From Candidatus Nitrosopumilus sp. (lineage in GTDB: Archaea > Thermoproteota > Nitrososphaeria > Nitrososphaerales > Nitrosopumilaceae): a DNA stretch of 50,545 nt. Location of the stretch: the NCBI GenBank assembly GCA_029863275.1, contig JAOTVS010000010.1, forward strand, positions 1-50,545. Direction: 5' to 3'. Shown here piece after piece: positions 13,952 through 18,891 of the stretch; the stretch's first letter is position 1; each line of letters begins with the position of its first letter. A program made the translations under genes and the position numbers. Below the pieces are notes generated by a model. That model did no database searches. It saw nothing but the letters and a program-made list of their open reading frames with translations, and was not told the DNA's origin.

Positions 13952-14926
13952 TTATTTTAAATTTATCTCTAAAAATTCTATAGTTTTTTGCCATGCATCC
14001 ATGGATTCTTCTGGAGCATATCTCTCACCAGAAGGATTTGCAAAAGCGTGATTGACATCTGGATAAATGTAAATGTCATTTGGAATTTCAAGTTCATTTA
14101 ATGCAGATTCGAATTCCTTTACTGATTTAGGTGGAATTCCTTGGTCAAGCTCTGCAAAAATCCCTAAAATTGGCCAATTAATTACAGATAGCCTCTCTTT
14201 TTCAGTAACTAATTGTCCATAGTAGATTACAGTGGCATCAATGTCATCATTGCTCAAAGCAAGATTAAGTGATTGTCCACCACCAAAACACCATCCAACA
14301 GACCCCATTTTTTCAGGAGCATATTTTTCTTGCACATACGATGATGCAAAATTCATGTTTTCATTCCAATACTGTGAATCAAAAGAGCTCATCAATTCCC
14401 GTGCCTCATCTGAGGTCGTAGCTAATTGCCCATCATACAAATCAACTGCAAATACAATATACCCATGAGATGCTAGTTTTTTTGCCATATCACGAATGTT
14501 GTCATTTAGTCCCCACCACTCATGAATCATAATTACTGCAGGATACTGACCATCCATACTTGGTCTGGCCAAGTATCCTTTAGAATTTTGAAAATAGTTT
14601 ACATCTTCAGTTTCCACTGAAAATTCTCCAAGGGTAAAGACTTCAGAATTATTGTTCTGATTTTTATTATAATCTGGTAGAATGTGCATTGCCCAACCTC
14701 GTTCTATTAACTTTGAAACAGAACTTGGTTGTAGACACGCTGGTTTTCCATTAGAGATTTTCATTACAAGTTCGAGTCCCTCCGTACAAGTAACTTTTGT
14801 TGGCTCTACTCCTTCATTGATCTGTTTTAGTGGAGGTGGAAAATATGCGATAGCCTCTGCATTTCCTAACTGTAATGTTACAATGATTATACTTAAAAAA
14901 ATTATTATAATTCCTGAATGATTCAC
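13952..14926 (-). CDS. Secreted dienelactone hydrolase family protein
   Basis: 324 aa. The N-terminal signal peptide is GIIIIFLSIIIVTLQLGNAEA. Residues about 40-85 form a small module with two cysteines: CTEGLELVMKISNGKPACLQ...KLIERGW. The alpha/beta-hydrolase domain follows, with the oxyanion-region IHEWWGLNDNIRDMAKKLA, the nucleophile elbow GWCFGGGQS (Cys as in dienelactone hydrolase), an acid in ILGIFAELDQGIPP and the catalytic His in YPDVNHAFANPSGERY. DLH-fold enzymes hydrolyse lactones or esters; export suggests an extracellular substrate. The two-cysteine module recurs in the Met/His-rich secreted protein at 37489. Substrate unknown. Confidence 0.88.
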   Translation of the reverse strand: MNHSGIIIIFLSIIIVTLQLGNAEAIAYFPPPLKQINEGVEPTKVTCTEGLELVMKISNGKPACLQPSSVSKLIERGWAMHILPDYNKNQNNNSEVFTLGEFSVETEDVNYFQNSKGYLARPSMDGQYPAVIMIHEWWGLNDNIRDMAKKLASHGYIVFAVDLYDGQLATTSDEARELMSSFDSQYWNENMNFASSYVQEKYAPEKMGSVGWCFGGGQSLNLALSNDDIDATVIYYGQLVTEKERLSVINWPILGIFAELDQGIPPKSVKEFESALNELEIPNDIYIYPDVNHAFANPSGERYAPEESMDAWQKTIEFLEINLK

Positions 14927-15469
14927 ATAAAGTATCTTATCTATTGATATTTTACTATTTCTTATTTTTGTACCTTCATCTATTTCTAGACTATTTTGAT
15001 AGTTACATGCAAACTGATCAATTATTTTTAAATTTTAAATTATAAATCTTCAAAAAAGAAAAATCAAATACAATTGGTAAAAATCTTACTTTTTGTTATA
15101 ATCTGGATTAGTAGGATTTTTGACTCATGAAGGGGCATTTCCTTTTTACTGACCCTGTAGATCAAAATTATTCTTTACGGTTCCAATGACTATCACAATA
15201 ATATCCTTCTTTACAATAAACTCTCTTTCAGTCTTAACATGTCTTTTGCACATAAGATGACATTGTATTCATTGTGTAGATACCGCCTTCATTCTAATTA
15301 ACCTGCCTTTTGCAGAAACACTATAAGGAGAATCAATGCATTTTCTTTGTCGTAGTAGTGTGAGTTTGCATATCTGAAAAGAAGGACTGAATTAACTACT
15401 CAGCTACGATAAACTTTACAGGAAACTCTCATTTGTCTTCTTTAATACCTAGTAAGGAGATAATAAAAC
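14927..15469. other. Intergenic region holding a decayed zinc-finger gene and a promoter
   Basis: AT-rich DNA between the dienelactone hydrolase and the first small-protein cassette. It contains a probable gene remnant (15168-15270, listed separately). Near its right edge a TATA-like GATAAACTTTAC (about 15408-15420) and a Shine-Dalgarno-like AAGGAG (15454-15459) lie ten bases before ATG 15470. I see nothing else of note. Confidence 0.5.
15168..15270 (-). pseudogene. Probable remnant of a tiny zinc-finger gene
   Basis: No intact frame exists, but two frames joined by one frameshift give a zinc-finger-like protein: CHLMCKRHVKTER in one frame, then VYCKEGYYCDSHWNRKE followed by TAA (15168-15170) in another. 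A two-base change around the GAAAGAGAGTT stretch restores continuity. The first cysteine pair is spaced CxxxC rather than the usual CxxC, so an extra codon may also have been gained. No start codon is clear. It lies beside a cluster of intact tiny zinc proteins, which makes decay of a family member plausible. Chance similarity is the alternative. Confidence 0.3.
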
Positions 15470-15580
15470 ATGTTAAAAGAACTATTTTTAAGACTAAAAG
15501 GAAAACGAGGAGCGACATTAAAAGACATTGATGCATTCAAGGAATCTGAACAAAAATACAAAAGGAGTTTGGAAAAATAA
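15470..15580 (+). CDS. Small lysine-rich protein (36 aa), first gene of zinc-finger cassette A
   Basis: ATG to TAA, 36 residues, highly basic and helical (MLKELFLRLKGKRGATLKDI...YKRSLEK). An AAGGAG sequence ten bases upstream supports the start. The stop TAA is followed at once by the ATG of the C2H2-type protein, so translation is coupled. A protein of exactly the same length and similar charge opens the inverted cassette at 16975-17085. Function unknown. Confidence 0.6.
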   Translation: MLKELFLRLKGKRGATLKDIDAFKESEQKYKRSLEK

Positions 15581-15712
15581 ATGACCTATAGTTGCAAACA
15601 TTGTAATTTTAGGTGGGATGCATGGGAAGGAAATTTTCAAAAGGTACTCAACCATGAAAAAACCCATTTAAAAAATTCAAAAACAATATCTGTGGAGAAA
15701 ATTAAGCAATGA
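15581..15712 (+). CDS. Tiny C2H2 zinc-finger protein (43 aa), cassette A
   Basis: 43 residues. Cys5, Cys8, His25 and His29 form a C-x2-C-x16-H-x3-H finger (CKHCNFRW ... VLNHEKTH). The protein at 16869-16973 has the four ligands at the same residue numbers and 16 of the first 29 residues identical, so the two are paralogues. It starts directly after the stop of the 36-aa protein and its stop overlaps the next start (ATGA). A single archaeal C2H2 finger could bind DNA, RNA or protein; which one is not known here. Confidence 0.7.
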   Translation: MTYSCKHCNFRWDAWEGNFQKVLNHEKTHLKNSKTISVEKIKQ

Positions 15713-15840
15713 TTCAATTAGATGATTTAAAAATTTGTGACAACTGTGGTAATGCATTTGCAAAACAACTAGGAGATAAGGCCATGAACCGTTGTCCAGC
15801 TTGTAAGACATGGAGAATGGAGAACAAAACTAAAAATTGA
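15709..15840 (+). CDS. Tiny zinc-ribbon protein (43 aa), third gene of cassette A
   Basis: 43 residues beginning in the ATGA overlap with the C2H2 gene. Two cysteine pairs, CDNC (near residue 10) and CPAC (near residue 29), give a zinc ribbon; the tail is basic (KTWRMENKTKN). It is the third gene of a compact three-gene unit. The equivalent position in cassette B also holds a two-CxxC zinc ribbon, but beyond the cysteines the two ribbons are not clearly alike. Function unknown. Confidence 0.62.
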   Translation: MIQLDDLKICDNCGNAFAKQLGDKAMNRCPACKTWRMENKTKN

Positions 15841-16004
15841 AAAACATCACAAACCTCCGTAAATTTATCCAATGGTTTTTTCATTATAATGTAAAAGAGA
15901 AGTCCCATTGGTGGAAAGAACAATAGTTTTTGAAAGGTGAAGTTTTAAAGAGTGAACAGTTGTATTATTTGTATATACAATAATAAACAATATTTTGAAT
16001 TAAC

Positions 16005-16538
16005 ATGGTGAGTTTTAATCTAGCAAGTGTATTTTTGCAAGCCCCCCAAAGTATTGATCTTTCTGTTATAGCGATTATAGTTAGCTCCTTAACTGCAATA
16101 ATTCTTGCATTCATGGTTTTAATAACTTGGAGAAACATAAAAGAAAATACAAAGGCAACCTATTCTCAGTTATTACGTGGGTTTCATGAGGATTTAACAA
16201 CTCGTCTAAACAAAAATTCTGTTCTTAAAACTAGAGAAGATTGTCAGAGATATGCAAATGATTATCTAAATACGGTAGACGAAATTGCTTTCTTAAACAT
16301 AAACGGAAAAATTCCGCAGGGAATTGCCAAATATCTTGGAAGATTTTTTGCATATGGTTTGAACATTATTGATTGGTACGATGATATGATTCAGGAAGAT
16401 TTTCTGGAAACTGCCAAGAAAAACTGGCCCAACTATTTTCGTTATTGTGAGAAGTACAGTATTCGTTTAAACCCTGAAGACAAACTTCCAAAAATAATGT
16501 TAGATTACAATCAATTGAGAGATAATGAATCACAGTGA
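16005..16538 (+). CDS. DUF4760-like membrane-anchored protein
   Basis: 177 aa. There is one N-terminal transmembrane helix (LSVIAIIVSSLTAIILAFMVL, about residues 20-41), then a helical cytoplasmic domain starting TWRNIKENTKATYSQLLRGF and including YLNTVDEIAFLNINGKIPQ, YLGRFFAYGLNIIDWYDDMI and FETAKK-type helices. The layout matches DUF4760, a family of single-TM proteins of unknown function sometimes found near mobile or defence genes. It lies exactly between the two inverted zinc-finger cassettes. A TATA-like TTGTATATACAATA about 30 bases upstream fits the ATG start. Confidence 0.6.
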   Translation: MVSFNLASVFLQAPQSIDLSVIAIIVSSLTAIILAFMVLITWRNIKENTKATYSQLLRGFHEDLTTRLNKNSVLKTREDCQRYANDYLNTVDEIAFLNINGKIPQGIAKYLGRFFAYGLNIIDWYDDMIQEDFLETAKKNWPNYFRYCEKYSIRLNPEDKLPKIMLDYNQLRDNESQ

Positions 16539-16557
16539 CTAAAAATCTCAAAAACTT

Positions 16558-16647
16558 TTAATCTATTTTACATTGGCATTTTTGTTGTTTGTCAAATCTA
16601 GGAAATTTTAGTTTATGACATACTTCACAATATAGTTGATTCGACAT
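16558..16647 (-). CDS. Tiny cysteine-rich protein (29 aa)
   Basis: 29 residues from ATG 16645-16647 to TAA. Cysteines are spaced CEVC and CQC, with a histidine after the first pair (CEVCHKL), enough for one zinc site; the rest is basic. It is the last small gene in the minus-strand run downstream of cassette B, about 80 bases after the zinc-ribbon gene. It is very short, and only the cysteine pattern and its neighbours support it. Confidence 0.45.
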   Translation of the reverse strand: MSNQLYCEVCHKLKFPRFDKQQKCQCKID

Positions 16648-16728
16648 TACTAATGTAAATAGAACTCAAGTAATAAGGATAGCACATTACAAATCTAAAA
16701 TAAAATTTTCCGACATGAGAATTAAAGT

Positions 16729-16869
16729 TTATTGTTTCTGAATTGTCTCAACATAACCATTTGCGTTTAACAAATTCCCACATGTTTGACATTCCCATTT
16801 CTCGTCAGCTTTTGTGTGTTTCTTATTTGTAATCCTTGAGGTATTACATACCTTACAGCGAACAGACAT
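16729..16869 (-). CDS. Tiny zinc-ribbon protein (46 aa), third gene of cassette B
   Basis: 46 residues. Cysteine pairs CKVC (residues 5-8) and CQTC are separated by about 20 polar, lysine-rich residues: a zinc ribbon. The start overlaps the stop of the preceding C2H2 gene by one base (TAATG), indicating coupled translation. Its place mirrors the zinc ribbon of cassette A at 15709. Function unknown. Confidence 0.62.
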   Translation of the reverse strand: MSVRCKVCNTSRITNKKHTKADEKWECQTCGNLLNANGYVETIQKQ

Positions 16870-16973
16870 TACTTTATTTTTCCTTGATGAGTTTTTTCAT
16901 GTTCTCGTACTTTTTCAAAAGTATATGAAGTTCCTTCCCACGTGAAATTACAATATTTGCATTGATATTTCAT
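16869..16973 (-). CDS. Tiny C2H2 zinc-finger protein (34 aa), cassette B
   Basis: 34 residues. Ligands Cys5, Cys8, His25 and His29 (CKYCNFTWEG ... VREHEKTH) sit at the same positions as in the 15581 protein, with 16 of 29 residues identical including YxCKxCNFxW and the FxKV..HEKTH end. It ends five residues after the last histidine, so it is essentially only the finger. One base separates it from the upstream gene's stop and it overlaps the downstream gene by one base. Confidence 0.7.
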   Translation of the reverse strand: MKYQCKYCNFTWEGTSYTFEKVREHEKTHQGKIK

Positions 16974-16974
16974 T

Positions 16975-17085
16975 TTATTTTTCTGATTTTCCTAGTTTTG
17001 CTTTTTTAAATTCTTGGTCTGCATTTTCGTCCTCTGTAATTTTACATGAACCAAATTTTAGTTTTTTAATTATTTTTTCGAACAT
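16975..17085 (-). CDS. Small lysine-rich protein (36 aa), first gene of cassette B
   Basis: 36 residues, ATG 17083-17085 to TAA. Basic N-terminal helix (MFEKIIKKLKFGSCKI), then an acidic-to-basic tail (TEDENADQEFKKAKLGKSEK). Same length and gene position as the 15470 protein of cassette A; sequence likeness is weak apart from the basic LK helix at the start. A TATA box (17104-17117) ends about 20 bases before the ATG, so the transcript is probably leaderless. Confidence 0.6.
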   Translation of the reverse strand: MFEKIIKKLKFGSCKITEDENADQEFKKAKLGKSEK

Positions 17086-17103
17086 AGTATAGTTATGGTT
17101 TAC

Positions 17104-17117
17104 CTTGATATATACTG
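17104..17117 (-). promoter_or_regulatory. TATA-type promoter of cassette B
   Basis: On the minus strand the sequence reads CAGTATATATCAAGG. Its centre is about 26 bases before the ATG at 17085, the normal distance from an archaeal TATA box to the transcription start, predicting a leaderless mRNA for the three-gene cassette. The divergent gene at 17219 shares this intergenic region. Confidence 0.5.
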
Positions 17118-17218
17118 GCATAATTTCTGAAATTTACGCCTAAGTTTCTATATTGATTTCTAATAATCTATAAACTTTAATGCATGGATATATATGGATC
17201 ATGATCTACTATATAGAT

Positions 17219-17314
17219 ATGGAAAATAAAGAAACAACCCCAACAATTGTAGTCGGCAACGACGACAAAAAAGAAGAGCCAAAGAAAGAAGACTCTGCTA
17301 AAACAGACAAATAG
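17219..17314 (+). CDS. Small charged, probably disordered protein (31 aa)
   Basis: 31 residues from ATG 17219 to TAG: MENKETTPTIVVGNDDKKEE then lysine/glutamate-rich. Low complexity and charge suggest disorder. An in-frame ATG at 17201 would add six residues (MIYYID). A TATATATGG stretch about 25 bases before 17219 supports the shorter form as a leaderless transcript. It is divergent from cassette B. Coding status rests on frame composition and promoter only. Confidence 0.45.
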   Translation: MENKETTPTIVVGNDDKKEEPKKEDSAKTDK

Positions 17315-17344
17315 GATTACCCCTTTTTGTTGAGATGATCAATA

Positions 17345-17620
17345 ATGCTGACTGAAATTTTAATTCAAATTAGAAACGAACTGACTAATCAGATCTCTTT
17401 GGCAAAAAATAAAGATAACAAAATAAATTCAAAAAAACTTGTTCAACAATCTGATATTCTAAATGAAAAGATTGTATCATCTAAAATTTCAGAAGAAGAC
17501 AAATTAATGTTACAGAAATTCTCATCAAGTCTTGTTCAAGGAAATTCTACTGCTAGATCATTGAGATATGAAAAACAAGATTTAGAAAGAGTGATTTCAA
17601 ACCTAAATTATTTTAATTAA
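17345..17620 (+). CDS. Hypothetical small helical protein
   Basis: 91 aa, starting MLTEILIQIRNELTNQIS and ending LERVISNLNYFN. It is entirely helical in appearance, with heptad-like leucines and isoleucines and no cysteines. There is no signal peptide or TM segment. I do not recognise a family; a dimeric coiled-coil is plausible. It follows the 31-aa protein by 30 bases on the same strand and may share its mRNA. Confidence 0.6.
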   Translation: MLTEILIQIRNELTNQISLAKNKDNKINSKKLVQQSDILNEKIVSSKISEEDKLMLQKFSSSLVQGNSTARSLRYEKQDLERVISNLNYFN

Positions 17621-17798
17621 ATTTACAATAGTTTGGTTAGTTTAGAAAAGATATTTACAAAAAAATGATTTCAACATTATTTTGAAGTGTTGTTATAATC
17701 CATAAAAAAATCTTATCAACAATATCAAAACTAAGAATATCTATTAGTTGAAACTAACTTTACATTACTTTAATACAGATAATTGTACTTGATATTCA

Positions 17799-17963
17799 AT
17801 GGGAAATAATTCTTGTAGAAAGTGCGGGTTAAGAATGGAAGTACATCAAAATTGTTCCATTTGTAAAAATGCAATTGAGTTTATTTGCCACAAATGTAAT
17901 CGCAATACAAACAAAGAAATTCATTCAATGTGCTTGGTAAAAAATATGCTTTTAACAACATAG
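17799..17963 (+). CDS. Small multi-zinc protein (54 aa) next to TFB
   Basis: 54 residues with four cysteine pairs or part-pairs: CRKC, CSIC, CHKC and a later C with nearby His residues (IHSMC). This could make one cross-brace or two zinc sites. The stop is 7 bases before the TFB start, on the same strand, so the two are probably co-transcribed. Linkage with a transcription factor suggests a role in transcription, but that is inference. I know no named family for it. Confidence 0.6.
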   Translation: MGNNSCRKCGLRMEVHQNCSICKNAIEFICHKCNRNTNKEIHSMCLVKNMLLTT

Positions 17964-17970
17964 TAAAAAT

Positions 17971-18891
17971 ATGACTATACAAAAAATTGAAGAAATTGAA
18001 TTAATCTGTAATAATTGTAATATCTCAAAATTAGTAACTGATAACTCAACTAGCGAAATTGTGTGTTCCAATTGTGGATGTGTGATCACAGAATCAGTCC
18101 AAGACAGGGGATTAGAATTTCAAAACTTTGCAGGAGTTTCTGACAATAGAAGAACGGGTCCGGGGTTGTCACCTAAAATGCACGACAAGGGACTTTATAC
18201 AATAATTGATACTTATAACAAAGATTCTATGGGAAAGCCACTCTCAACAAATACCGTTCAAACATTTGCTCGATTAAGAAAATGGGATAAAAGATCCTAC
18301 ACCAAAAATTCAGCCGAACGAAGTCTGAAAAGTGCCCTTCAAGACCTAGGCAATGTACAATCAAGGCTAGGGCTCTCAGATACCATAATTGAAAGAGCTT
18401 CTATTTTTTATAGGAAGGCCTCAGAGCGGAATCTTATTCGTGGAAGAACCATAAAAGGAATGGCAGGAGCATGCCTGTATGCTGCATGTCGAGATTTGGA
18501 ACATAATAGAACTCTGACTGAAATTGCAACGCAACTTGGAATAGGAAGAAAAGATCTTGCCAGGTCATACAGATCACTTTTCAGGGAATTAGGGTTTGTA
18601 GTATCAATTGCTGATCCAATAAAATCTATCAACAAAATTGCAAGCAAAATTGGAGTAAAGGAAAAAACTATTCGTAAAGCAGTATATGTTTTTGATATGG
18701 CCCAAGAAGCAGGAATTGTTGCAGGTAAAAATCCAGAAATTATTGCAGCAACTGCAATTTATGCTGCGTGCATGTTGACAGGGGAGAATAAATCACAGTA
18801 CGAAATAGCTCTTGCTGCAAGTACCAGTACAGTTTCTCTAAGAAATAGAATTTCAGAATTTAGAGATAAATTAGATTTATTTTCAGAATAA
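17971..18891 (+). CDS. tfb: Transcription initiation factor TFB (TFIIB homologue)
   Basis: 306 aa, close to the usual TFB length. An N-terminal zinc ribbon (CNNC ... CSNCGCVI, residues 12-36) is followed by the B-reader region (QDRGLEFQNFAGVSDNRRTG) and two cyclin folds. The first includes ARLRKWDKRSYTKNSAERSL and the GRTIKGMAGACLYAACRD segment; the second includes IRKAVYVFDMAQEAGIVAGK and PEIIAATAIYAACM. It recruits RNA polymerase to TBP-bound promoters and reads the BRE. Thaumarchaea commonly encode several TFBs, so this may be a specialised copy. It lies at the end of the small zinc-protein cluster. Confidence 0.95.
   Translation: MTIQKIEEIELICNNCNISKLVTDNSTSEIVCSNCGCVITESVQDRGLEFQNFAGVSDNRRTGPGLSPKMHDKGLYTIIDTYNKDSMGKPLSTNTVQTFARLRKWDKRSYTKNSAERSLKSALQDLGNVQSRLGLSDTIIERASIFYRKASERNLIRGRTIKGMAGACLYAACRDLEHNRTLTEIATQLGIGRKDLARSYRSLFRELGFVVSIADPIKSINKIASKIGVKEKTIRKAVYVFDMAQEAGIVAGKNPEIIAATAIYAACMLTGENKSQYEIALAASTSTVSLRNRISEFRDKLDLFSE

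Follow-up and report, generated by a model that had tools for sequence, protein, structure and literature searches.

A widespread, apparently undescribed family of microprotein operons in Nitrosopumilaceae

Background

In Halobacterium salinarum, two small proteins of one operon (brz-brb), one basic and the other a zinc finger, jointly activate the bop gene (PMC3184054, PMC2253796), and the bp4 operon of Halobacterium carries genes for a basic protein (bp4), a zinc finger (OE2447F) and a regulator (boa4) in that order, with a 7-bp overlap (PMC3184054, PMC2253796). By definition, CPxCG-related proteins have two Cys/His patterns separated by 7-40 residues, one or both being CPxCG, CPxCx or CxxCG (PMC2253796). 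Ammonia-oxidising archaea possess 8-11 TFBs (PMC4084955).

The DNA analysed here (50,545 nucleotides of contig JAOTVS010000010.1 of a Candidatus Nitrosopumilus sp., hereafter the window) belongs to a 1.76-Mb Nitrosopumilaceae genome and contains two cassettes of tiny genes on opposite strands. Nitrosopumilaceae are among the most abundant microbes of the sea and drive nitrification; to our knowledge, few of their regulators are known beside the expanded TFB set, and the specialisation of TFB paralogues is a long-standing question. Like brz-brb and bp4-OE2447F-boa4, the cassettes place genes of a tiny zinc-finger protein and a tiny basic protein side by side, are adjoined by a transcription-factor gene (a TFB gene, at part of the cassette loci), and went unannotated until a targeted study; as in the bp4 operon, the basic protein gene comes first and genes overlap. 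We also count as a likeness that the target of brz-brb, bop, is a membrane-protein gene. In contrast, Brz has a CPxCG-related motif, whereas the finger proteins of the window are of the C2H2 type without a CPxCG-like pattern. Unlike brz-brb, the cassettes come with a third protein that is exchangeable, with a promoter class of their own and with an RNA; their neighbours are TFB paralogues instead of Bat-type activators, the lineages being different. No sequence relationship is apparent from a comparison of the finger types, and the resemblance would be one of working, not of descent.

The microprotein operon family to which the cassettes belong is real, widespread and apparently undescribed, no literature on the cassette genes or on the 58-nt RNA associated with them having been found. 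Apparently new are the operon family itself, the promoter of one of its two classes (class II) and the RNA family, which has no Rfam match.

The two cassettes of the window

A sequence-only reading of the window had proposed two inverted three-gene cassettes around a DUF4760-like membrane protein. All six ORFs of these cassettes are present at the coordinates and lengths listed below, each with an ATG start, and are genuine genes: their order, which was to be sought in related genomes, recurs in many Nitrosopumilaceae genomes far beyond chance, and they are under purifying selection while matching no Pfam or NCBIfam family over cut-off. That reading had overlooked a fourth gene (16647-16558), an RNA element (15351-15408) and a dedicated promoter (17107-17121). 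The proteins are here named B (basic peptide), F (C2H2 finger), P (ribbon of the plus-strand cassette), M (ribbon of the minus-strand cassette), T (177-aa membrane protein between the cassettes) and N (fourth gene after M); the plus-strand cassette is of class I and the minus-strand cassette of class II.

15470-15580, plus strand: B of class I, 36-aa basic peptide with mildly amphipathic N-terminus, an HMM family
15581-15712, plus strand: F of class I, 43-aa protein with a predicted single C2H2 finger (C-X2-C-X16-H-X3-H)
15709-15840, plus strand: P, zinc ribbon of 43 aa (CxxCG ... CPxC), third in the cassette, overlapping F by 4 nt
16005-16538, plus strand: T, 177 aa, with a single hydrophobic segment at the N-terminus and a C-terminal part that is helical
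16558-16647, minus strand: N, microprotein of 29 aa (CxxC...CxC), encoded after M as the fourth gene
16729-16869, minus strand: M, 46-aa zinc ribbon (CKVCN ... CQTCGN), overlapping F by 1 nt
16869-16973, minus strand: F of class II, 34-aa protein with a predicted single C2H2 finger
16975-17085, minus strand: B of class II, 36-aa basic peptide of the MFxKIIxKLKFGSCK type

B and F abut in the plus-strand cassette and are 1 nt apart in the minus-strand cassette. The conserved positions Cys5, Cys8, His25 and His29 and the 16 identical residues among 29 that had been noticed between the two F proteins are correct by direct count. In the family alignment, C5, C8, W12, H25, E26 and H29 are invariant (the two Cys and two His also in a second alignment), and the core M-x-Y-x-C-x2-C-x-F-x-W...H-E-K-x-H is nearly so. 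Together with a structure model that has strands at residues 2-4 and 11-13 and a helix at 20-39 (pLDDT 85 over the finger), the C5, C8, H25, H29 pattern and the predicted beta-beta-alpha fold characterise F as a single C2H2 finger with a predicted set of zinc ligands. The Cys-His spacing is 16 residues, not about 12 as in classical C2H2 fingers; F has no Pfam zf-C2H2 match over cut-off, and its best match in a PDB profile search has E = 0.16.

The third proteins had both been called zinc ribbons. P and M, however, are two different families: profile comparison aligns only 11 columns at a probability of 28%. By direct reading, P (CDNCG and CPACK) and M (CKVCN and CQTCG) fall within the CPxCG-related definition and are similar in size to archaeal microproteins of that class (HVO_2753, HVO_0758), whereas F and B of the window do not fit it and operon architecture is no part of the class. 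Neither Pfam nor NCBIfam gave a match over cut-off for any cassette protein or T, and PHROGs gave nothing informative, M matching a Lar-like family weakly.

The ribosome typically has small basic and zinc-ribbon proteins among its ligands, and the cassette products might accordingly be associated with the ribosome or translation, with the ribbons and basic peptides binding rRNA under stress and the RNA element taking part in the same response. Scores of F and M against L37ae, S27e and S27ae are weak, and P has a marginal match (E = 5.3) to an HVO_2753-like zinc protein chain in entry 9fhl, other chains of which include ribosomal proteins. We nevertheless consider this improbable: every one of these scores lies below cut-off, and the patchy, multicopy, exchangeable content and dedicated promoters of the cassettes, described below, are unlike those of ribosomal proteins.

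Distribution, architecture and selection

With a 41-row profile, the F finger was found in 84 of 400 genomes of the order, all of them Nitrosopumilaceae (7 of 66 genera), in up to seven copies per genome; F alone as a query gave 62 matches in 30 of 151 genomes. Titled loci carrying cassette proteins come from Nitrosopumilus, Nitrosarchaeum and other Nitrosopumilaceae. B lies directly upstream of F in 79 of 115 distinct F genes. The gene that follows F is exchangeable: among the same 115 genes it encodes Q (31), R (18), M (16), P (14), a second F (4) or T (1), while three are fused F-M ORFs, 26 have no recognised third gene and two are at a contig edge. Q (CNKCYN...CxCxCF) and R (GFLGDKQ...CxWC) are both Cys-rich microproteins. 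The start of the third gene mostly overlaps the stop of F by 1-20 nt, and translation of the two is therefore probably coupled. N has 11 distinct homologues, nine of which sit 16-82 nt downstream of M or of a fused F-M gene. A five-gene array B-F-P-F-M, which joins both types of the window, occurs in three genomes of one genus (L033, L034, L039).

A check of the dN/dS type had been proposed for the cassette genes. Summed over pairs from different genomes, pN/pS is 0.28 for F, 0.39 for B, 0.23 for P, 0.36 for M and 0.26 for T; since synonymous changes outnumber non-synonymous ones, all five are under purifying selection. Separately, the dS of some B pairs is very low beside that of the F gene next to them (0.03 versus 0.55 for L052/L044; B genes of L044, L046, L050 and L052), and nucleotide-level constraint, of DNA or RNA, in or near the start region of B is possible.

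No relatives were found in phage records, and T was not found in viral contigs. Two viral contigs have an F-like finger when a narrower alignment is used as the query; in one, a tailed-virus-like contig with a portal-like gene (L161 5001-5246, IMGVR_UViG_3300025889_000185), the finger is joined to a further Cys-rich stretch. The portal-bearing contig, the patchy distribution and the many copies would suit an addiction or conflict module of variable regions and sometimes of viruses, in which B would be a membrane-active cationic peptide kept under control either by F and the third zinc protein or by the RNA; the N-terminus of B is indeed positive (mean charge +4.4 over 15 residues) and mildly amphipathic (mean z 1.17 versus shuffles). 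Such a module is decidedly improbable, however, as 36 of the 115 F genes lack a recognised B immediately before them, the amphipathicity of B is a weak signal (28% of B proteins are above the 95th percentile of shuffles), cassette proteins have no match in PADLOC-DB at E<=0.1, and the recurrent neighbours include no conspicuous mobility gene.

Two old cassette classes and their promoters

The two cassettes had been said to look duplicated. Local duplication around the membrane gene is rejected by the alignment scores of B and F, which place the two in separate lineages: their mutual rank is only about 70th of 79, and the nearest relatives of each lie in other genomes, among cassettes of the class to which it belongs. 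By these scores the cassettes are old paralogues of two old lineages. The upstream regions split as the proteins do, 25 having the RNA element, 34 the class-II promoter, none both and 20 neither at the thresholds used. In class I (25 cassettes), a conserved 58-nt element lies some 60-120 nt ahead of B, and the third gene is P (10), R (10), M (1) or none recognised (4); class II (34 cassettes) has a TATA box with a fixed extension, and its third gene is mainly Q or M. The corresponding elements of the window are as follows.

15291-15327, plus strand: putative promoter of the 58-nt RNA, ATTCTAATTAACC at 15291-15303 and TATA-like CTATAAG at 15321-15327
15351-15408, plus strand: 58-nt element, probably a structured RNA
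15440-15469, plus strand: putative class-I cassette promoter, TATA-like CTTTAATA with AAGGAG at 15453-15458
17107-17121, minus strand: class-II promoter ATGCCAGTATATATC, the only exact site in the genome
17114-17140, minus strand: inverted repeat TTAGGCGTAA ... ATTATGCC, which extends into the class-II promoter, a possible operator

The class-II motif AHGYYRGTATATAYC has 21 sites in 23 genomes (approximately 1.1-2.2 Mb), 20 of which are upstream of a cassette: 19 just before a known F cassette and one before a decayed B-F-M cassette. No class-II regulon beyond the cassettes was seen, the only other exact site being inside a coding region. This near exclusivity points to a dedicated factor that would read the class-II promoter, and autoregulation would be the simplest explanation. 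In the window, the class-II TATA box ends about 26 nt before the start codon of B, a distance from which, given archaeal promoter geometry, the transcript is probably leaderless. Many class-II copies add a left arm, TTAGGCRTAA, that forms an inverted repeat with TTACGCC (17140-17114 in the window); the right arm is kept in nearly all class-II cassettes and the left arm in many, which is consistent with a possible operator.

Aligned class-I cassettes share a block of the TTTATA type. The TATA-like CTTTAATA lies approximately 26-30 nt before the start of B, the copy in the window being degenerate, and 15440-15469 may serve as a promoter. Likewise, ATTCTAATTAACC and CTATAAG blocks precede most of the cassette-adjacent RNA copies and many elsewhere, CTATAAG lying 24-30 nt before the RNA start in the window, and 15291-15327 may be a promoter of the RNA.

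The 58-nt element, a probable structured RNA

The 58-nt element (CGUAGURGUGUGAGUUUGCAYAUC ... GAAGGACUGAAUUAACUACUCAGCUACG) is present in a single copy in the genome of the window and occurs in 70 of 250 Nitrosopumilaceae genomes, including genera in which F was not found. Rfam 15 gave no match at E<=1 to positions 14800-18200, and the tRNA that the cloverleaf-like form might suggest was rejected, ARAGORN reporting none there. The predicted fold has a closing stem, CGUAG/CUACG, and three small hairpins. Across these helices there are 28 cells of double-sided change, where shuffles give 12.7 and slid controls no more than 13; U-A becomes G-C in the closing stem and A-U becomes G-C in the last hairpin in 10 sequences each, these sequences being related and the helices having been chosen while viewing the same sequences.

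An RNA structure is likely, its exact form being less sure, as an alternative RNAalifold structure also scores (23 cells). The same observations bear on the rather unlikely alternative that the element is not an RNA but a DNA site, for example for protein binding or recombination, which would be compatible with any reading of cassette function. Conservation is very high (93% mean column identity), the alternative nested fold fits too, and the variable sequences are largely of one genus, so that the pair changes are not independent events. Against a DNA site are the excess of double-sided changes over both controls, the middle hairpin, which is longer in other genera yet still paired, and a TATA-like block at a near-constant distance (about 25-30 nt) upstream of most copies. 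With L196-L212 considered besides the window, the element appears to have a role of its own, because about half of its copies do not precede a cassette and longer-hairpin forms occur in genera without F.

TFB neighbours and proposed function

The window has a TFB paralogue gene, divergent from the class-II cassette and about 1 kb away, the product of which scores 282.6 bits (E=3.5e-84) against the NCBIfam TFIIB model, under that model's own cut-off.

17971-18891, plus strand: TFB paralogue gene (NCBIfam TFIIB model)

In 10 complete genomes (79 TFB genes, 23 F loci), a TFB gene is within 2 kb of eight of the F loci versus 0.5 expected by position rotation (p<=5e-5, approximately 16-fold), orthologous sites within a genus being counted separately. 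Several different TFB paralogues adjoin cassettes, and sharing of variable genome regions could contribute to the linkage. M itself aligns with the profile of the N-terminal ribbon of TFB over its full length, collinear at both Cys pairs (probability 70%, 29 columns), although it stands alone and lacks linker and cyclin folds, the loop separating its Cys pairs is longer, and Pfam gives no match of M to the TFB ribbon. As zinc ribbons generally look alike, this likeness is a hint only.

A regulatory role of the cassettes is plausible. We give an about even chance to the proposal that every cassette forms an autoregulated mini-operon whose products make up a small transcription-regulatory complex. 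F, with one C2H2 finger, and the basic B would contact nucleic acid jointly, each being too small for specificity alone, and the third protein, whether P, M, Q or R, would set the partner or target; M may touch RNA polymerase much as the TFB ribbon does. The complex would tune its own promoter and possibly also neighbours such as T and the TFB paralogues; class I would additionally depend on, or be read together with, the 58-nt RNA. The proposal draws on the constancy of the B-F pair beside an exchangeable third gene, the F-M fusions, the dedicated class-II promoter, the mutually exclusive upstream classes, the enrichment of TFB neighbours, the predicted beta-beta-alpha fold of F, the alignment of M with the TFB ribbon and the joint action of a small basic protein and a zinc finger in the Halobacterium operon. 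Counting against it, single C2H2 fingers can bind protein instead of DNA, and the weak Foldseek matches of the F model, none of them significant, include a ubiquitin-binding finger; the M-TFB likeness is weak, the control P reaching 60% over part of its length (18 columns); and the class-II promoter could be read by a factor other than the cassette products.

An unlikely extension of the mini-operon proposal is a lineage-specific combinatorial system with many B-F cassettes per genome, in each of which a constant B-F half that binds nucleic acid would be joined to an exchangeable ribbon that docks on polymerase or TFB, with dedicated core promoters read by one TFB paralogue and the 58-nt RNA as a partner; if true, it would amount to split transcription factors assembled on demand from peptides of fewer than 50 residues. 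If the cassettes are regulators, a layer of regulation has been missed because proteins of only 29-46 residues are too small for normal annotation. The 15-nt cassette-specific promoter motif, the small RNA family and the link to TFB paralogues offer handles on it.

Membrane protein T and other neighbours

T had been called DUF4760-like, and both are small with an N-terminal TM segment. Membership of T in DUF4760 (PF15956, cut-off 25 bits) was rejected, with no match at E<=10 in the genome and none in the Pfam scan at E<=1. T occurs in 47 of 250 Nitrosopumilaceae genomes and is a recurrent neighbour of cassettes, found near cassettes or the 58-nt RNA in nine listed genomes (G000, G012, G074, G088, G331, G194, G332, G411 and G345), and an occasional member of the cassette array itself, with B-F-T-B-F-M on one strand in G012 (L048). 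T and the 58-nt RNA are divergent and 217-250 nt apart in G088, G411, G345 and L141. This recurrence, and the purifying selection on T, could reflect a signalling unit in which F and the ribbon, tethered to the membrane by B, would form a metal or redox sensor with T. We regard such a unit as quite improbable, since most cassettes have no T nearby, the T genes of one genus lie elsewhere, and the structure model of T is too poor for use (pLDDT 52).

Further small proteins recur around the cassettes. A 54-aa protein with several Cys pairs is encoded just before the TFB gene of the window (17799-17963) and has seven relatives near F in five genomes. Other tiny Cys-rich families are found near cassettes as well, one of them ending in CxDCKRxHCxxGCNCDCHWEP. 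In 11 genomes, 82-aa proteins that by eye resemble single-domain Lrp/AsnC effector-binding domains are encoded at most 2.5 kb from F (for example, L042 4869-5117).
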